A program made the position numbers and the translations under genes. The notes under the pieces were generated by a model that ran no database searches, was not told where the DNA came from, and worked only from the letters and a program-made list of their open reading frames with translations. Positions 5,947 to 45,616 of a stretch of 58,688 nt of DNA are shown here, piece after piece (position 1 is the first letter of the stretch; each line of letters starts with the position of its first letter). Origin of the DNA: Syntrophorhabdaceae bacterium (lineage in GTDB: Bacteria > Desulfobacterota > Syntrophorhabdia > Syntrophorhabdales > Syntrophorhabdaceae). The stretch is from NCBI GenBank assembly GCA_026415675.1, contig JAOAGQ010000039.1, positions 1 to 58,688 of the forward strand. Direction: 5' to 3'.

Positions 5947-5992
5947 TGGAAAGACCTATCCTTTGTCGGTGATTTTTTGGGGTGTCAGATTT

Positions 5993-6238
5993 TTATGTTT
6001 CAGGTACGTAAGGCTTGCCACATACCTTGCAGACACCGTTTTCAACAACGCCTATGCACGTCCCATCGCTACAGAGTATCCTGTTCTCAAAGTCTATCCC
6101 ATCATCCTCTGACTCCACTGTGCTATCCATGAGGGGGCTGCCGCAGAAATAGCAGAAAGGACCCAGGCGCAGGACATCGTTGTTACATTTTTTGCAAAAC
6201 AGAGTATCCAGTTCTTTTCCACACTTATCGCAGATCAT
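5993..6238 (-). CDS. Small zinc-ribbon protein, 81 aa
   Basis: The protein contains four CxxC pairs or near-pairs: CDKCG (residues 3-6), CKKC, CYFCG and CKVCG near the end, plus other single Cys residues. This fits two zinc-ribbon folds, and no catalytic domain accompanies them. The gene starts 3 bases from the end of the lipoprotein gene upstream on the same strand and ends 46 bases before ftsY. Many such ribbon proteins bind nucleic acid or act as partner subunits; the function here is unknown. Confidence 0.75.
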   Translation of the reverse strand: MICDKCGKELDTLFCKKCNNDVLRLGPFCYFCGSPLMDSTVESEDDGIDFENRILCSDGTCIGVVENGVCKVCGKPYVPET

Positions 6239-6241
6239 ACC

Positions 6242-6718
6242 TCACCTTTTTTTGATGATTTTCGATACCTTACCGTCTTCAAATTCAACGTATACAGTAT
6301 CCTTATTATCGGGCAACAACTTCCACGAAGGTTTATAGGTCCAGATGATTTTATTATCCGGGGTCTTGCTTACCATATCGGGCTCCCCTATCTTTTTTCT
6401 TACCTCTTCTTCCGTCATGGAGATGATACTATTCTGAAGGGCAGGATGGGACGGTTTCTCCTTTGATGTTTTGAAGAATGTACAGGATGGCAGGAACATA
6501 AAGGATATAAGAAAAAAGATAGATAAGCAACCCAAAAGAGACTCCGGCTTTTTCCACAATTTTTGTTTAAAAGATGTTGAAAAATTGTCATAGCTTGTGT
6601 CTATATTACCGTAATTATTATAGAATTTGATAGTTTGCAAAAAGCGGTGGCAAAAAAAATTCTTTTTATTTTCAAATAGTTTCAAAAGCCCACCTTTTCT
6701 CTCGGGGATGATTTTCAT
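6242..6718 (-). CDS. SmpA/BamE-like lipoprotein (start uncertain)
   Basis: The C-terminal 60 residues, beginning SMTEEEVRKKIGEPD and ending VEFEDGKVSKI, match the SmpA/OmlA (BamE-like) fold found in small outer-membrane lipoproteins. Ahead of it is a lipoprotein signal: a hydrophobic stretch SIFFLISFMFLPSC with the lipobox Cys. The full open frame from ATG 6718 would place about 60 hydrophilic residues before this signal peptide, which is unusual. A TTG start just before GCLSIFFL, with ggag seven bases upstream, is a more sensible start and would give a protein of about 97 residues. By family knowledge it may assist outer-membrane assembly, but the BAM complex itself is not in this window. 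Confidence 0.65.
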   Translation of the reverse strand: MKIIPERKGGLLKLFENKKNFFCHRFLQTIKFYNNYGNIDTSYDNFSTSFKQKLWKKPESLLGCLSIFFLISFMFLPSCTFFKTSKEKPSHPALQNSIISMTEEEVRKKIGEPDMVSKTPDNKIIWTYKPSWKLLPDNKDTVYVEFEDGKVSKIIKKR

Positions 6719-6749
6719 ACACTAAGGTTATCATGATTTGTCATAATTA

Positions 6750-7736
6750 TCAATAAGTTATATGTGTATATTTTTTCGATGCCTTCTCAAGGCGCTCCAT
6801 CATTGCCTTTCCGAGACCGTGTTTTGGTATTCTCTGGGCGTAGATAATTTTTACATCCTCCCTGTCCAGTTCTATAAGATAGGAAAAGAAGTTTGCCGCT
6901 GCCTCCCTCATATCACCTGAAGGGGAGAGAACTTTTGTATACTTACTTTTAGGGTTGAAGTCAGGGGAAGTGAAGGCGAGGTACGACGAATCGTGCTCCC
7001 CTATCTCCTCTACCCCATCTATGATTCTCAACGGCCTGTGAGGGGCATAGTGGTAGGGTAGTTCCCCTGGTGCAACACACTTACCACCTGAAGAACCCCT
7101 TTCGAGCACAGGATTTATCACCTCTGAGAGTTCCTCCATGCTTATGGCACCATGCCTGTGGATGTATGTCTTTCCATCCTCGAAAGAGACGATCGTCGAT
7201 TCGATGCCGTACGGGGTATCCCCTCCATCGAGGATAAGCTCTATTTTACTGTGAAGAAAGCGTGCCACATGGAGGGCTTTTGTAGGGCTCATATAACCGA
7301 AAGGATTGGCACTCGGCGCGGCTATGGGCCCCCCGAACGTTTTTATAAGCTCGAGGGCAACGGGATGGGAGGGCATCCTGACCGCAACCGTTGGAAGACC
7401 TGCCGTAACGATACCAGGCACTTTTTCTTTTTTTTTAAGAATCATGGTGAGAGGGCCTGGCCAAAAACGTTTTGCAAGGGAATAGGCCTCGTTTGGTATT
7501 TCTTCTGTAAGGTTAAAGAGGTCATCCATATCCCCTATATGGACTATTAAAGGGTCGAACTTAGGCCTTTTTTTTATCTCGAAAATCTTTGCCACGGCAT
7601 AGCTGTTTGTTGCATCGGCACCGAGACCGTATACGGTTTCTGTAGGGAAAGCGACAACCTCCCCTTTTCTCAAAAGGGATACCGCCTTTTCAATACCTTT
7701 ACGGTCATATCCATTTAAGATTTCCATCGCCATCAT
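6750..7736 (-). CDS. tsaC: Threonylcarbamoyl-AMP synthase (Sua5/TsaC)
   Basis: The enzyme makes threonylcarbamoyl-AMP from threonine, bicarbonate and ATP, the first step of the t6A37 modification of ANN-decoding tRNAs. The YrdC-type core is clear: [19 protein letters not shown], then the KKRPKFDPL motif, then the [12 protein letters not shown] signature. At 328 residues it also has the C-terminal Sua5 domain, so it is the long Sua5 form and not the short TsaC. The start overlaps the tatA stop by a few bases; ATG 7736 and ATG 7733 are both possible, as is the third Met (MEILNG). Confidence 0.95.
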
Positions 7737-7936
7737 TGCTCTTGCTTTGTAGGTTTCTTCTCATCCTTTTCGTTTTTAGGGGTTACATCGATCTCATCGG
7801 GTTCTTTCATCGATTTCTTAAAACTCTTTATCCCTTTCCCTATCGCGCCGCCGATCTCCGGCAGTTTTCCTGCCCCGAAGATAATAAGGACGATTACCAT
7901 GATCACGATCAGTTCTGGCATGCCAAGACCAAACAT
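7733..7936 (-). CDS. tatA: Twin-arginine translocase subunit TatA/E
   Basis: This 67-residue protein has the standard TatA layout: a short periplasmic start MFGLGMPE, one membrane helix (about 7-22), the FGAGKLP hinge, and an amphipathic helix [14 protein letters not shown] followed by a charged tail rich in Lys, Glu and Asp. It forms the pore-like part of the Tat system for folded proteins. TatC and TatB are not in the window, but a Tat-signal protein is encoded at 58116. A strong Shine-Dalgarno (aggagg) precedes the ATG. Its stop overlaps the start of tsaC. Confidence 0.95.
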
Positions 7937-7988: not shown

Positions 7989-9335
7989 TTACTCCTTGAG
8001 ACCGTACTTTTTTATCTTGTTGTAAAGGGTGACCCTGTCAATATCAAGTATCTCCGCGGAACGCTGTATGTTCCAGTTGTTTTCTCTCAAAATTTTTAGA
8101 ATATGCTCCTTTTCGACGGCCTTTATGCTCTTATCTTTGACCGACTCTCCCTCGGGGGAGAGCTTTTGTGTTAGATTGAGGTCTTCTACGCTTATGGTTT
8201 GCTCTTTACAGACTACCATCGCCCTCTCTATAACATTTTCAAGCTCCCTTACGTTACCTGGCCAATGATAGTCCATAAGCATCTTGAGGCCACTCTCCGA
8301 TACCTTTTTTATTTGTTTACCCATCTCGATATTAAATTTGTGGATAAAGAACTCTGCAAGGTATGGGATGTCTTCCTTCCGTTCCCTTAAAGGGGGCATC
8401 TCGATGGAGATCACATTCAGCCTGTAGTAGAGATCTTCCCGGAAAAGGCCCTCTTCAACGGCTTTTTTTAAGTCCCTGTTTGTGGCTGCGATAATCCGTA
8501 TATCGAGTTTTATCGGGGTAATACCCCCTAGTCTCATGATCTCCTTTTCCTGTATAACCCTTAAAAGGCTCATCTGTAGTTTTGGTGTGATATCCCCTAT
8601 TTCGTCGAGGAAAATGGTACCGCCATTGGCGAGTTCAAATTTGCCTTTCTTTGTATTGAAGGCGTTTGTGAATGCCCCCTTTTCATAACCAAAAAATTCA
8701 CTCTCGAGGAGAGTCTCCGGAAGGGCCACGCATGAGACAGGAACAAAGGGCCCCTCTTTTCTGTAGCTCTCGTTGTGAATGGCCCTCGCAAGGAGCTCTT
8801 TTCCTGTCCCGCTCTCTCCCAAGATGAGGATATTGGAGTTACTCTTTGATACGGTCATGGCGAATTCAAATATCTTCTGCATCTTGGGGCTTTTACTCAC
8901 GAGGTCATGGAAACGGTATCTCTTCGTTAATTCCTTTCTGAGGTGGTCAACCTCTCTTACAAGGGTCTGGTTTTCTATAAGTCTTTTCACAAGCAAGGAT
9001 ATCTCTTCAGGGTCGCACGGTTTTATCAAATAATCATAGGCCCCCATCTTCATCGCTTGGACTGCCGTATGGACTGTCGCATAGGCGGTGATGATTATAA
9101 TCTGCAAACCGGGGGATATCTCCTTTGCCTTTTCCATGAACTCAAGACCGTCCATTTTTGGCATCTTTAAGTCCACCATCGCTATATCCCATTCCTCTTC
9201 CTTTACCATCTCGAGGGCCTTAAGGCCGTTTTCCGCTGTTCCAACGGCATGGCCATCTTCCATTAACCATTCGGCGAGGGAGTTTCTCACGATCTCTTCG
9301 TCGTCCACCACAAGGATCTTTATCTTCTTGGACAT
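7989..9335 (-). CDS. NtrC-family sigma-54 response regulator
   Basis: The 448-residue protein has a receiver domain (acidic D11/D12, phosphoacceptor D55 in IAMVDLKMP, K105), a sigma-54 AAA+ domain and a Fis-type helix-turn-helix. Walker A is GESGTGKE (173-180) and Walker B is GGTIFLDEIGD (238-248). The sigma-54 contact loop reads GAFTNA (220-225) in place of the usual GAFTGA. The C-terminal HTH is NIQRSAEILDIDRVTLYNKIKKYGL in register with Fis-like HTH. The heme-binding sensor kinase gene lies 18 bases upstream, so the two form a two-component pair. It should activate sigma-54 promoters, though none are evident in the window. Confidence 0.96.
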   Translation of the reverse strand: MSKKIKILVVDDEEIVRNSLAEWLMEDGHAVGTAENGLKALEMVKEEEWDIAMVDLKMPKMDGLEFMEKAKEISPGLQIIIITAYATVHTAVQAMKMGAYDYLIKPCDPEEISLLVKRLIENQTLVREVDHLRKELTKRYRFHDLVSKSPKMQKIFEFAMTVSKSNSNILILGESGTGKELLARAIHNESYRKEGPFVPVSCVALPETLLESEFFGYEKGAFTNAFNTKKGKFELANGGTIFLDEIGDITPKLQMSLLRVIQEKEIMRLGGITPIKLDIRIIAATNRDLKKAVEEGLFREDLYYRLNVISIEMPPLRERKEDIPYLAEFFIHKFNIEMGKQIKKVSESGLKMLMDYHWPGNVRELENVIERAMVVCKEQTISVEDLNLTQKLSPEGESVKDKSIKAVEKEHILKILRENNWNIQRSAEILDIDRVTLYNKIKKYGLKE

Positions 9336-9353
9336 CCCTTTCTCCTCGTTTAT

Positions 9354-10979
9354 TTACATGCCCCCTTTTTCTACATTAAAGGTCCGGGGAAGTTTTATCG
9401 TAACCGTAGTTCCGTGGGCAGGTACACTTTCTATATTTAGTGTACCACGATGGGAGCTGACAATTCCATAGACAACGGATAAACCGAGACCTGTCCCGCT
9501 CTCCTTTGTGGTGAAGAAGGGGTCGAATATCTTGGGGAGTATATCGGGGTCGATGCCGGGTCCATTGTCTACTATTTTTATAAGGACCATCTCCTCTTTC
9601 TCTATAAAATCGGTGTAAATGGTGATTTTCCCTCCCCCCTCCAGAGCCTCGCATGAATTTAGGATGATGTTTAAAAATACCTGTCTTAACTGCATGGGGT
9701 CGGCGGTAATGGTGGGAACCTGGGAAAACACCTTTTCAAGTTTAATCTCCTGGAGATTGATATGGTTTGACAGCAAAGTTACCGCATCCTCGATGAGAAG
9801 ATTTATGTTCACATCGTTTTTGAGGGAGGGTTCCCTCTGTCTTGAAAAATCGAGGAGGTTTCTCACAATTGTACTGCACCTCTGGGTCTCCCTCTCCATA
9901 ACGCTCAAATAGGAGGATATCTTAGTGATCTCCTCATCGCTTAAATTTTTCGATGCGAGCTTTCTCTCAATCAGTTTTGTGTATGTGAGTATGCCGTTTA
10001 GGGGGTTGTTGATCTCATGGGCGATAGTGGCGGAGAGTTTGCCGATGGATGCGAGCTTTTCCGATTGGATGAGCTGGGCCTGGGCCTCTTTTAAGGCGGA
10101 TGTCCTCTCTTCCACCTTATCCTCGAGGGTCTTTATAAATTCCTTTAACTCTTCGTCGGCCTTTTTCAGACGCTGGGTCATCCTTGCAAAAGACTCAGAA
10201 AGCATACCCATCTCATCCTTTGTAAATATTTTTGCCTCATAGTTGAAATCCCCTTCGGCAACCTGGGTTGTTGCCTTTACTAGTTCTTTAACGGGCCAGT
10301 TTACATACCTGTGAATCACGAGTATGATCACTATGGAGACCACCATGATCGTTATAATGGCAAACAATATCGTTTTTCGTGTTACCTGGGCTATGATTTT
10401 GTCCGTATTTTCAAGGGAAAGGGTCACATCGAAGACACCCAGCACATTCTGTTCGGGGCTATGGGCATGACATTTGGCTGTGTAACAGTCAGGGCCGTTA
10501 TAGATAGGGGTGATCATACCGAGAATCCTTTTTCCTCCCGATTTGAAGATCCTTGCCCTGCTCGGGGTATCAAGCCTTACAAGGGGTTTCCCCTCTAAGT
10601 GGCATGCGTAACAGGCCTCCGTTGTTTTACCCACCATAGTACCTATCTCTTTTTTGTCAGAGGAGAACATGATCTGGCCATCTTTGTTGAAGATCCTTAC
10701 CTTTTCGATCTCTTCCTGGGCCCCTACCGTCTCTATCGCATGGTGCACCGCCTCCCTGTAGTTGTGAAGCATGTTGAATCTTAGGCTTCTCGTCAGGGTT
10801 CCGCTTAACTGTTTGGCCCACAGGATGGCTTCGTTGAGTAAGGTCTCCCTCTGGGCTGCTATGTTTGTATAGGCGTATATCCCAATAAAAAGTATCAATG
10901 TTATACCAACCCATATGGTGAGTTTAAAGGTGAGAGAATAAGTCGTGGGCACCCTATTTATCATATCTGTGTAGCCCAC
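9354..10979 (-). CDS. Membrane sensor histidine kinase with a periplasmic c-type heme domain
   Basis: The 541-residue kinase has a first membrane helix (about 20-38), a periplasmic sensor region to about 203, a second membrane helix (204-223), HAMP (about 224-275), a coiled coil, HisKA with H321 in HEINNPLNGI, and a HATPase domain with the DNGPGID and GTGLGLSVVYG boxes. The sensor region contains CYACH (123-127), a classical CxxCH heme-c site, and a second C-x4-C-H site CYTAKCH (165-171). It should therefore bind heme covalently in the periplasm and sense redox state or a gas ligand. The start is GTG 10979; an ATG at 10964 is an alternative. It is co-transcribed with the NtrC-type regulator. 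Confidence 0.95.
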   Translation of the reverse strand: MGYTDMINRVPTTYSLTFKLTIWVGITLILFIGIYAYTNIAAQRETLLNEAILWAKQLSGTLTRSLRFNMLHNYREAVHHAIETVGAQEEIEKVRIFNKDGQIMFSSDKKEIGTMVGKTTEACYACHLEGKPLVRLDTPSRARIFKSGGKRILGMITPIYNGPDCYTAKCHAHSPEQNVLGVFDVTLSLENTDKIIAQVTRKTILFAIITIMVVSIVIILVIHRYVNWPVKELVKATTQVAEGDFNYEAKIFTKDEMGMLSESFARMTQRLKKADEELKEFIKTLEDKVEERTSALKEAQAQLIQSEKLASIGKLSATIAHEINNPLNGILTYTKLIERKLASKNLSDEEITKISSYLSVMERETQRCSTIVRNLLDFSRQREPSLKNDVNINLLIEDAVTLLSNHINLQEIKLEKVFSQVPTITADPMQLRQVFLNIILNSCEALEGGGKITIYTDFIEKEEMVLIKIVDNGPGIDPDILPKIFDPFFTTKESGTGLGLSVVYGIVSSHRGTLNIESVPAHGTTVTIKLPRTFNVEKGGM

Positions 10980-43180: not shown

Positions 43181-44443
43181 CTAACCAATACCTTTTCCAG
43201 GGTCAACGAATCTATTCTTTAGCTCTTTTGCAAGGGCTATATTTTCAATATGGCCTGTCTGCCTTGCCGTTATCTTTCCTATGATGGGCCTATTCAAAAG
43301 GTATAGATCCCCTATCAAATCCAAGACCTTGTGCCTTACGAATTCATTTTCAAACCTGAGTTCAGTATTGATCACACCCTCCTCGTTGAGGATGATGAGA
43401 TTACTTACCCTGCCCCCTGTGCCAAGCCCCATTTTTTCGAGTCTTTCAAAGTCCTTTAAAAAGCCATAGGTCCTCGCCGGGGCAATCTCCTTTATGAACC
43501 CCTCTTTTTCACATACAAAATGAAACTCCTGAAACCCAATGGGTTTGGGACCCTCAAGGACATAGTCGATCTCTAAATGTTTAGAGGGTTCGATTTTTAT
43601 GGATTTTCCCTCAGGGATACCCTGAAGCTCTACGGTTTCACCTATTACTATAGGCTCGATACCTGCATCCTGCTCTATAATACCTGCCTCTTCTATCTTC
43701 CTGCATATCTCTCTGGCAGAGCCATCAAAGATAGGCACCTCCTCACTCACCTTTACCAATATATTTGTGATCCCGTACATATGGAGAGTGGCCATTAGAT
43801 GCTCAACGGTCCTCACCATACAGTTCTTCCCTTTCACAAGGGATGCGTAACCCACGGAAAATACATAGTCCACGTAAGCAGGGATTCTTTCCCCGTCCGG
43901 GATATGCTCGAACACGATGCCCGTGTTCTCGGGCATCGGCAAAAGTATCATCCCTGTTTTCACCCCGGTATGGAGCCCCAATCCGTATGCAACAATGCTC
44001 TTTCCTATGGTCTTCTGTTTGTACACATCGAGACCTTTGAGGGGACCAATTCTTATTTCTTCGGTCTTAGAATGTAAAGGTCTCTCCTCGGAGGTACCCC
44101 TTTTTATCACCTCAAGGATCTTGTCGATCGAAAGGGGTTTCTCAACAAAATCAAAGGCCCCCATTTTTACCGCCTCAACGGCGGTTGAGATGGTGCCGTG
44201 CCCTGATATGACGATCACCATCCCCCCTTTGTTCAATTTTTTTATCTCCTTTAGAACCTGGAGTCCGTCGAGACCGGGCATCCAGATGTCGAGGAGGACG
44301 ATATCAGGCTCTTCTTTTTTGTAAATATCGAGACCCAGAGGACCGTCCGTTGCCTTGAAAACAATGAAACCTTCATCTTCAAGGAGAGGGGAGAGGCTAT
44401 CGAGTATCGCCTTTTCGTCATCGATTATGAGGATTTTCTTCAT
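43181..44443 (-). CDS. lpxC: Response-regulator receiver domain fused to UDP-3-O-acyl-GlcNAc deacetylase (LpxC)
   Basis: Numbering is from ATG 44449. Residues 1-120 form a receiver domain like that of NtrX/NtrC regulators: acidic pair D10-D11, phosphoacceptor D54 in VLLDIWMPGLDG, S82, and K104 in FVEKP. Residues 142-422 are a complete LpxC, which commits UDP-acyl-GlcNAc to lipid A. KQKTIGKSIVAYGLGLHTG starts the domain; zinc ligands are H217 (TVEHLMA), H373 and D377 (VRHKVLDLIGD), and the general acid/base His is H400 (ARQTGHIENIALA). Spacing between these sites matches E. coli LpxC. The promoter suggests the true start is ATG 44443 (KKILIIDDE), with a leaderless mRNA. lpxK is divergent. Confidence 0.96.
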   Translation of the reverse strand: MKKILIIDDEKAILDSLSPLLEDEGFIVFKATDGPLGLDIYKKEEPDIVLLDIWMPGLDGLQVLKEIKKLNKGGMVIVISGHGTISTAVEAVKMGAFDFVEKPLSIDKILEVIKRGTSEERPLHSKTEEIRIGPLKGLDVYKQKTIGKSIVAYGLGLHTGVKTGMILLPMPENTGIVFEHIPDGERIPAYVDYVFSVGYASLVKGKNCMVRTVEHLMATLHMYGITNILVKVSEEVPIFDGSAREICRKIEEAGIIEQDAGIEPIVIGETVELQGIPEGKSIKIEPSKHLEIDYVLEGPKPIGFQEFHFVCEKEGFIKEIAPARTYGFLKDFERLEKMGLGTGGRVSNLIILNEEGVINTELRFENEFVRHKVLDLIGDLYLLNRPIIGKITARQTGHIENIALAKELKNRFVDPGKGIG

Positions 44444-44449
44444 TTTCAT

Positions 44450-44539: not shown

Positions 44540-45616
44540 ATGAGAAATGCCATAATTAGGGTATGGAGCGGTGAAGGAAGTTATATATCCTGGCTTTTAT
44601 GGCCACTCCTTTTTCCCCTCTCTCTCATCTATAAAGTCTGCCTAAAGGTGATCGACTTTCTCTACCGAAAGGGCATTAAAGAGGCAAGGGAGGCCCCCAT
44701 ACCTGTTATAAGCGTTGGCAATATAACCCTCGGTGGGACAGGGAAGACCCCTGTTGTAGAGAAACTCTCGTTAAGGCTAAAGGAGATGGGATTTAACCCC
44801 GGGATAATAACGAGGGGATATATGAGGAAGAGAAAGGGAACATTTTCTGTTGATATAGAGAGAGATAGTGCTACCGAGGTCGGTGATGAGGCCTATATGC
44901 TCGCAAAAAAGACGAAGCTCCCTGTCCTTGTGGGCAATGACAAAGGGGAGGCAATCGGTATGGGTATAAGGGAGTTCGATATAGATGTGGCTTTAATAGA
45001 CGATGGTTTCCAGACGAAAAACATAAAAAAGGACATGGAGATACTTATATTAGACGGAGGCAGGCGGGAAAAAAGGCCGGCCCTATTTCCCTTAGGCCCG
45101 TACAGGGAACCTGTTGAGAGGATATGCGATGCCGATGTCCTTATTCTCAAAAATGGTTCTCTTGACGAAACCATAGGTAGATATGCCGATGGGATCCCTG
45201 TCTATCCTATGAGATTTAGACCCCTCTATCTTTACAACATGAAAAGAGAGAGATATGTCCATCATCAGTTTATAAAAAATAGAGCGGTTCTCGCCTTTTC
45301 CGGGTTAGGGAACAACAGGTCTTTTTTTGACCTGTTACGGGATATAGGGGCATTGGTCGTGAAAGAGTTAAGTTTTCCCGACCATCACGATTATAGCGAA
45401 AGGGATCTCCGCCATATCCTGTCGTACAGGGATATAGATTTCATTATAACAACCGAAAAAGATGGGGTTAAGGTTTCAAGGATGGATCTCCCGGAAAATC
45501 TTTTTTGCCTCGCCATTGAGCCCGTTATAGAGAAGGAAGAGGATTTGTTAAAGAATATTACGCAAAAAATAGAGATTACAAAGAGATTATACGATGGAAG
45601 AGGTGGGTATGTCTGA
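44540..45616 (+). CDS. lpxK: Tetraacyldisaccharide 4'-kinase
   Basis: LpxK adds the 4'-phosphate of lipid A at the inner membrane. The 358-residue protein has a hydrophobic N-terminal helix (SWLLWPLLFPLSLIYKV), then PVISVGNITLGGTGKTPVVEKL with the P-loop (65-70), the ITRGYMRK motif, DVALIDDGFQTKNI (DDGFQ signature), the PLGPYREPVER motif and the FPDHHDYSERDL end motif. All are standard. It has no Shine-Dalgarno and a very short predicted leader. Its 3' end overlaps leuA. With the divergent lpxC fusion it forms a lipid A locus. Confidence 0.96.
   Translation: MRNAIIRVWSGEGSYISWLLWPLLFPLSLIYKVCLKVIDFLYRKGIKEAREAPIPVISVGNITLGGTGKTPVVEKLSLRLKEMGFNPGIITRGYMRKRKGTFSVDIERDSATEVGDEAYMLAKKTKLPVLVGNDKGEAIGMGIREFDIDVALIDDGFQTKNIKKDMEILILDGGRREKRPALFPLGPYREPVERICDADVLILKNGSLDETIGRYADGIPVYPMRFRPLYLYNMKRERYVHHQFIKNRAVLAFSGLGNNRSFFDLLRDIGALVVKELSFPDHHDYSERDLRHILSYRDIDFIITTEKDGVKVSRMDLPENLFCLAIEPVIEKEEDLLKNITQKIEITKRLYDGRGGYV

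Follow-up and report, generated by a model that had tools for sequence, protein, structure and literature searches.

The window, by which we mean the whole stretch of 58,688 nucleotides of Syntrophorhabdaceae DNA analysed here, contains on its minus strand a single open reading frame that joins a receiver domain to LpxC, the enzyme of the committed step towards lipid A of the outer membrane (Table 1). The frame runs from an ATG start at 44449 down to 43181 with no internal stops, while the plus strand of the same interval has stops throughout. An initial annotation, made from the letters of the sequence, had described one frame with a complete receiver and a complete LpxC, and this description holds, as the 422-residue frame is intact and both Pfam domains are full. 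The receiver matches Response_reg (PF00072) over residues 6-115 (E = 1.4e-30), and the enzyme domain matches PF03331 over residues 145-411 (E = 1.5e-78; profile positions 1-267 of 268), with scores above the curated cut-offs of both Pfam PF03331 (264 bits against 27) and NCBIfam TIGR00325 (226 against 187). The residues that the annotation had named (D10, D11, D54, S82, K104, H217, H373, D377 and H400) are all found where it had placed them, as are the ligand spacings of 156 (H217 to H373) and 27 (H373 to H400).

Table 1. Features of the fusion locus, in window coordinates
Feature	Coordinates	Strand	Remarks
rec-lpxC fusion gene	43181..44449	-	422 aa, the genome's sole lpxC
NtrX-type receiver, residues 1-118	44096..44449	-	PF00072; acid pocket D10/D11, phospho-acceptor D54, S82, K104
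Interdomain linker, residues 119-143	44021..44095	-	Variable in length and sequence; low confidence in the structure model
LpxC catalytic domain, residues 144-411	43217..44020	-	PF03331, TIGR00325; E216, H217, H373, D377, H400
LpxK-like divergent neighbour	44540..45616	+	Read from its translation; context only

The enzyme domain resembles Aquifex LpxC closely (39% identity, TM 0.93). Because the window genome is 99% complete and encodes no LpxC other than the fused one, the cell relies on the fused enzyme, which is presumably active as a deacetylase on UDP-3-O-acyl-GlcNAc. A scan for sigma-54 promoters upstream of the fusion gene gave no match nearby, and the total number of matches equalled the chance expectation. 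Transcribed divergently from the fused lpxC is a gene resembling that for LpxK, another lipid A enzyme.

A frameshift or assembly join between the two domains, which the initial annotation had named as a possible artefact, is excluded by the presence of the same two-domain frame in related genomes and in many other families. Nor is the fusion absent from close relatives, as had also been considered: the frame occurs in about 30 of the 39 related genomes searched, at 63-74% identity and in a few cases with one or two stops inside the match. In one related genome (G001) the locus is cut by a contig end, and within the window's order the fusion is present in every member that has a full-length locus. 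We surveyed 395 genomes of the phylum, then inspected 80 of them more closely and finally the loci themselves, and the fusion turned up in 25 families or more. Once duplicates were removed, there were 78 distinct fused proteins, comprising 61 short receiver-LpxC forms and 17 long forms with an additional middle part of about 330 residues. Evidence for spread beyond the phylum comes from a pair of MAG loci, one from Nitrospina (L037) and one from Holophagales (L035); the former retains a degenerate AAA+ part.

A tree of 107 LpxC domains placed every fused LpxC in one clade (SH-aLRT 98), within which the sole nominally unfused row is the G001 gene cut at its contig end. This topology suggests one origin of the fusion, with INTERMEDIATES. 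Three frames of 934-1354 residues (L135, L142 and L151) had the appearance of kinase-receiver-LpxC fusions and were rejected as open-reading-frame overruns, since no Pfam match was found in the extra N-terminus; in two of the three, a separate ntrY lies upstream within the extra N-terminal stretch. One further locus (L127 in G132, 5983-7869) is an AAA-LpxC frame without a receiver; a frame of 91 residues separates it from ntrY and has the look of a receiver that was broken or frameshifted.

The initial annotation had also proposed, as the source of the receiver, a sigma-54 regulator whose AAA+ part has been lost. Three observations bear this out: the receivers belong to the NtrX clade, REC-AAA-LpxC intermediates exist, and free NtrX is gone where LpxC is fused. 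The best receiver-type NCBIfam match of the window protein is NtrX (NF051870, residues 3-134), with a whole-protein score of 122 against a cut-off of 600, and the sigma-54 AAA+ and Fis-type DNA-binding domains are absent; the protein derives from NtrX, yet it is not an NtrX. When set against the nearest NtrC-family paralogues from the same genomes, the fusion receivers and the receivers of NtrY-adjacent NtrX proteins formed one clade (98%), and in a second tree the long fusions, represented by their REC-AAA part, likewise grouped with NtrX. For L263, L264, L268 and L246, whose rows in this second tree were probably in a wrong frame and were not used, NtrX identity comes from searches with the L158 probe. 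In these bacteria, a large and little-studied group, NtrX, elsewhere a gene switch, is now part of LpxC, and its partner sensor kinase can therefore probably control the enzyme directly.

The 17 long fusions have the order REC, sigma-54 AAA+ and LpxC, some with a helix-turn-helix remnant. Aligned with genuine NtrX, they keep Walker A (GExGxGKE), and all 17 have lost both the catalytic Walker B glutamate and the GAFTGA loop, the element that contacts sigma-54. The stretch that can be aligned to the Fis-type helix-turn-helix is kept in 13 of them and deleted in four. Since the distribution of short and long forms on the LpxC tree requires several changes, and since repeated gain of the same domain in the same place is unlikely, the AAA+ part was probably lost several times among the fusions.

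Searches for NtrX orthologues, all made with a single NtrX (L158) as probe, separated the two kinds of genome sharply. A free orthologue was found in 40 of 40 genomes tested that have an unfused LpxC and in 1 of 73 with a fused one (24/24 against 1/33 in a first set, and 16/16 against 0/40 in a second, from which G077, with two LpxC genes, was omitted). The same division appeared within families that have both kinds of LpxC, with NtrX in 7/7 unfused and 0/7 fused genomes of family f29, and in 7/7 and 0/1, respectively, of family f51. The unfused genomes were picked mostly among those having NtrY, and the claim is therefore that a genome with NtrY has a free NtrX as well, except where its LpxC is fused. 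Among the fused genomes, G306 alone retains NtrX next to NtrY (fusion on C56, L139; NtrX/NtrY at C3:27062-30639, L232). Its fused LpxC is nested with those of family f29, while its own-family relative G267 has an unfused LpxC, and horizontal transfer or contamination is possible. Matches at 48-49% in family f13 (G078, G219 and G282) were rejected as NtrX, because in the tree they fall with a paralogue that G069 encodes in addition to true NtrX. Other NtrC-family regulators do exist in fused genomes. The window itself encodes one on its minus strand (7989-10979), next to a 541-residue frame that is perhaps its kinase; this regulator, too, is a paralogue and not NtrX.

We compared conservation of the receiver, the enzyme and the linker that joins them. 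The phosphorylation quintet D10, D11, D54, S82 and K104 is invariant in all 61 short fusions. E216, H217, H373 and D377 are likewise present in 61/61 and H400 in 60/61, the missing row being truncated by a contig end. Within the window's order, identity is 69.7% for the receiver and 70.9% for the LpxC domain, against 22.9% for the linker. By these patterns the receiver, conserved like the enzyme and with an invariant quintet, is under selection and not vestigial, and because its phosphorylation residues never vary, phosphorylation very probably matters to the fusion protein. Alternatively, the receiver might be a dead structural remnant, kept as a folding or solubility tag on an LpxC that works normally. 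Domain remnants can persist, as the AAA+ part of the long fusions has done without its motor residues, but in those same proteins the neighbouring receiver residues remained intact while the AAA+ motor decayed. Together with the conservation just described and the retention of NtrY where NtrX was lost, this makes a dead remnant very improbable.

The initial annotation had noted that no histidine kinase is adjacent to the fusion and that the partner must lie elsewhere. The first statement is correct for the window, but in about 20 other genomes the orthologous fusion lies directly downstream of ntrY: an NtrY-type kinase is the gene directly upstream in 17 loci, to which G049, G086 and G121 were added by coordinates. 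In an unfused relative (L158) the gene order is lpxC, DUF4390, ntrY and ntrX, which is likely to be the ancestral arrangement. The second statement can now be given a specific candidate, the single NtrY orthologue of the window genome (G000:C65:4829-6961; E = 1.0e-173), beside which the next kinase (7.5e-44) is weaker in E-value by about 130 orders of magnitude. This protein has NtrY_N, HAMP, PAS, HisKA and HATPase domains, and its H, N and G boxes are intact in sequence. Profile searches of 59 fused genomes found a single NtrY in each of 57, and the two genomes in which none was detectable are 68% and 75% complete. The latter of these, G408, carries two different receiver-LpxC fusion genes (L140 and L155) about 130 kb apart on a single contig.

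In the 11 genomes examined from the window's order NtrY is an orphan, since ntrY has no neighbouring receiver gene on its own strand. Kinase and fusion are linked in some 20 other fused genomes and unlinked in this order, where their pairing rests on orthology and exclusion. The missing kinase partner of the fusion is most likely this NtrY. Distance matrices gave no covariation between NtrY and the receiver beyond the share that NtrY has with the LpxC domain (partial r = -0.18). The orphan ntrY genes of the window's order (L202-L212) mostly have a laccase-family gene (PF02578) directly upstream, and downstream of them lie genes for SmpB or for ParB and a short-chain dehydrogenase. A gene of cluster 7 is found beside or near ntrY in L158, L122, L130, L136 and L161; the two members scanned are DUF4390 (PF14334), and the DUF4390 gene is possibly a further part of a lipid A signalling neighbourhood.

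Retention of NtrY where free NtrX is gone would also be expected if signalling ran in reverse, with the fusion acting as a sink or scaffold through which LpxC occupancy or lipid A demand is signalled to NtrY and from there to other regulators. The other NtrC-family regulators of these genomes might serve as recipients. However, no second conserved partner was identified and an extra, unseen step would be needed, and we regard this route as a very remote prospect.

We propose instead that a transcriptional two-component system was rewired to control LpxC directly, through fusion of ntrX to lpxC, loss of the AAA+ part and retention of NtrY, and we give this reading a probability of about 0.72. 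An in-frame fusion would first have joined the ntrX gene of an lpxC-ntrYX neighbourhood to lpxC. Next, the AAA+ domain would have ceased to hydrolyse ATP and to contact sigma-54, and it would have been deleted in several lineages to leave receiver-LpxC, an order of decay and deletion that we infer from sequence and from the living intermediates. The membrane kinase NtrY would have been retained with the fusion as its new receiver partner, as gene order, orphaning and co-occurrence indicate. The outcome would be a response regulator that has LpxC itself as its output domain. NtrY may sense an envelope or redox condition and phosphorylate D54, and the receiver may dock on LpxC in a manner such that phosphorylation alters docking or dimerisation and thereby adjusts LpxC output immediately, with no transcriptional step. 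Direct action of D54 phosphorylation on LpxC, which the initial annotation had also raised, is strongly suggested by conservation and gene content; its mode might be dimerisation, opening of the active site or a change in stability. Because NtrYX represses lpxC in alphaproteobacteria, a first guess by analogy is that phosphorylation might restrain the enzyme.

An AlphaFold model of the fusion (pLDDT 88, pTM 0.87, with pLDDT below 50 at residues 122-130) suggests that the receiver and LpxC domains have a defined or preferred arrangement, pTM alone being no proof of docking. Residues that fused LpxCs share but that unfused LpxCs seldom have, among them S151, V153, G166, K233, C249, Y383 and T398, are candidates for a docking surface.

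The main rival to control of activity is control of stability, in which phosphorylation of the receiver would expose or hide a site for a protease adaptor (LapB/FtsH-like, or Lon). Proteolysis through LapB/FtsH is the classical mode of LpxC control in E. coli (PMC12444477), and the window genome has a LapB-type zinc-ribbon gene, as do 14 of the 17 genomes tested. However, LapB-like genes are equally frequent in genomes with unfused LpxC, and the zinc-ribbon family also matches Gram-positive controls, so this evidence is weak. Moreover, the last helix of the model ends at residue 415, which would leave little room for a C-terminal degron like that of E. coli. We consider control of stability unlikely, if well ahead of a dead remnant or reverse signalling.

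Little is known of how LpxC is controlled outside the gamma-, beta- and alphaproteobacteria. A receiver built into the enzyme would, if the direct-control reading is true, represent a new class of LpxC control. Such control would account for NtrY having outlived NtrX in fused lineages. It would also offer a rare case in which the conversion of a transcription factor into the regulatory domain of an enzyme can be read step by step, and the idea that NtrY reports the state of the envelope to lipid A synthesis becomes testable with two purified proteins.

Compared with the standard LpxC of Aquifex, E. coli and P. aeruginosa, the fused enzyme has the same fold, zinc ligands and catalytic residues, and differs in having a receiver. 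LpxC-FabZ (NCBIfam NF009667) is also a one-frame LpxC fusion, but its partner is a lipid enzyme and not a signalling domain; the window protein falls far below the cut-off of this family. Receiver phosphorylation controls an attached enzyme in CheB, PleD and others, whose enzymes act in signalling, whereas the output here is a committed and usually essential biosynthetic enzyme.

Among systems that act on lpxC, NtrYX of R. sphaeroides and Caulobacter represses the gene via transcription (PMC7240162, PMC12444477). It shares with the fusion an orthologous type of kinase and receiver and an effect on LpxC and LPS amount, but there NtrX binds DNA, whereas in the window protein the receiver belongs to LpxC itself and neither the AAA+ nor the DNA-binding part is left. 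The two-component regulator DVU2934/DVU2931 of Desulfovibrio vulgaris has lpxC as its single mapped target, and in S. fumaroxidans the operon of the orthologous regulator has lpxC directly upstream (PMC3333781). Unlike the fusion, the regulator is a separate protein that acts on the lpxC promoter, and the likeness noted here is in the lpxC target. In P. aeruginosa, LpxC is regulated by binding of MurA, a precedent for direct activation of LpxC at the protein level (PMC12444477). We found no description of a receiver-LpxC fusion in the library of papers searched, and neither a fusion nor a receiver is mentioned in a review of lipid A regulation from 2025 (PMC12444477). Enzyme outputs are known among response regulators; what is new is a committed lipid A enzyme as the output with the source transcription factor lost, the receiver being that of NtrX itself and the intermediates still alive.
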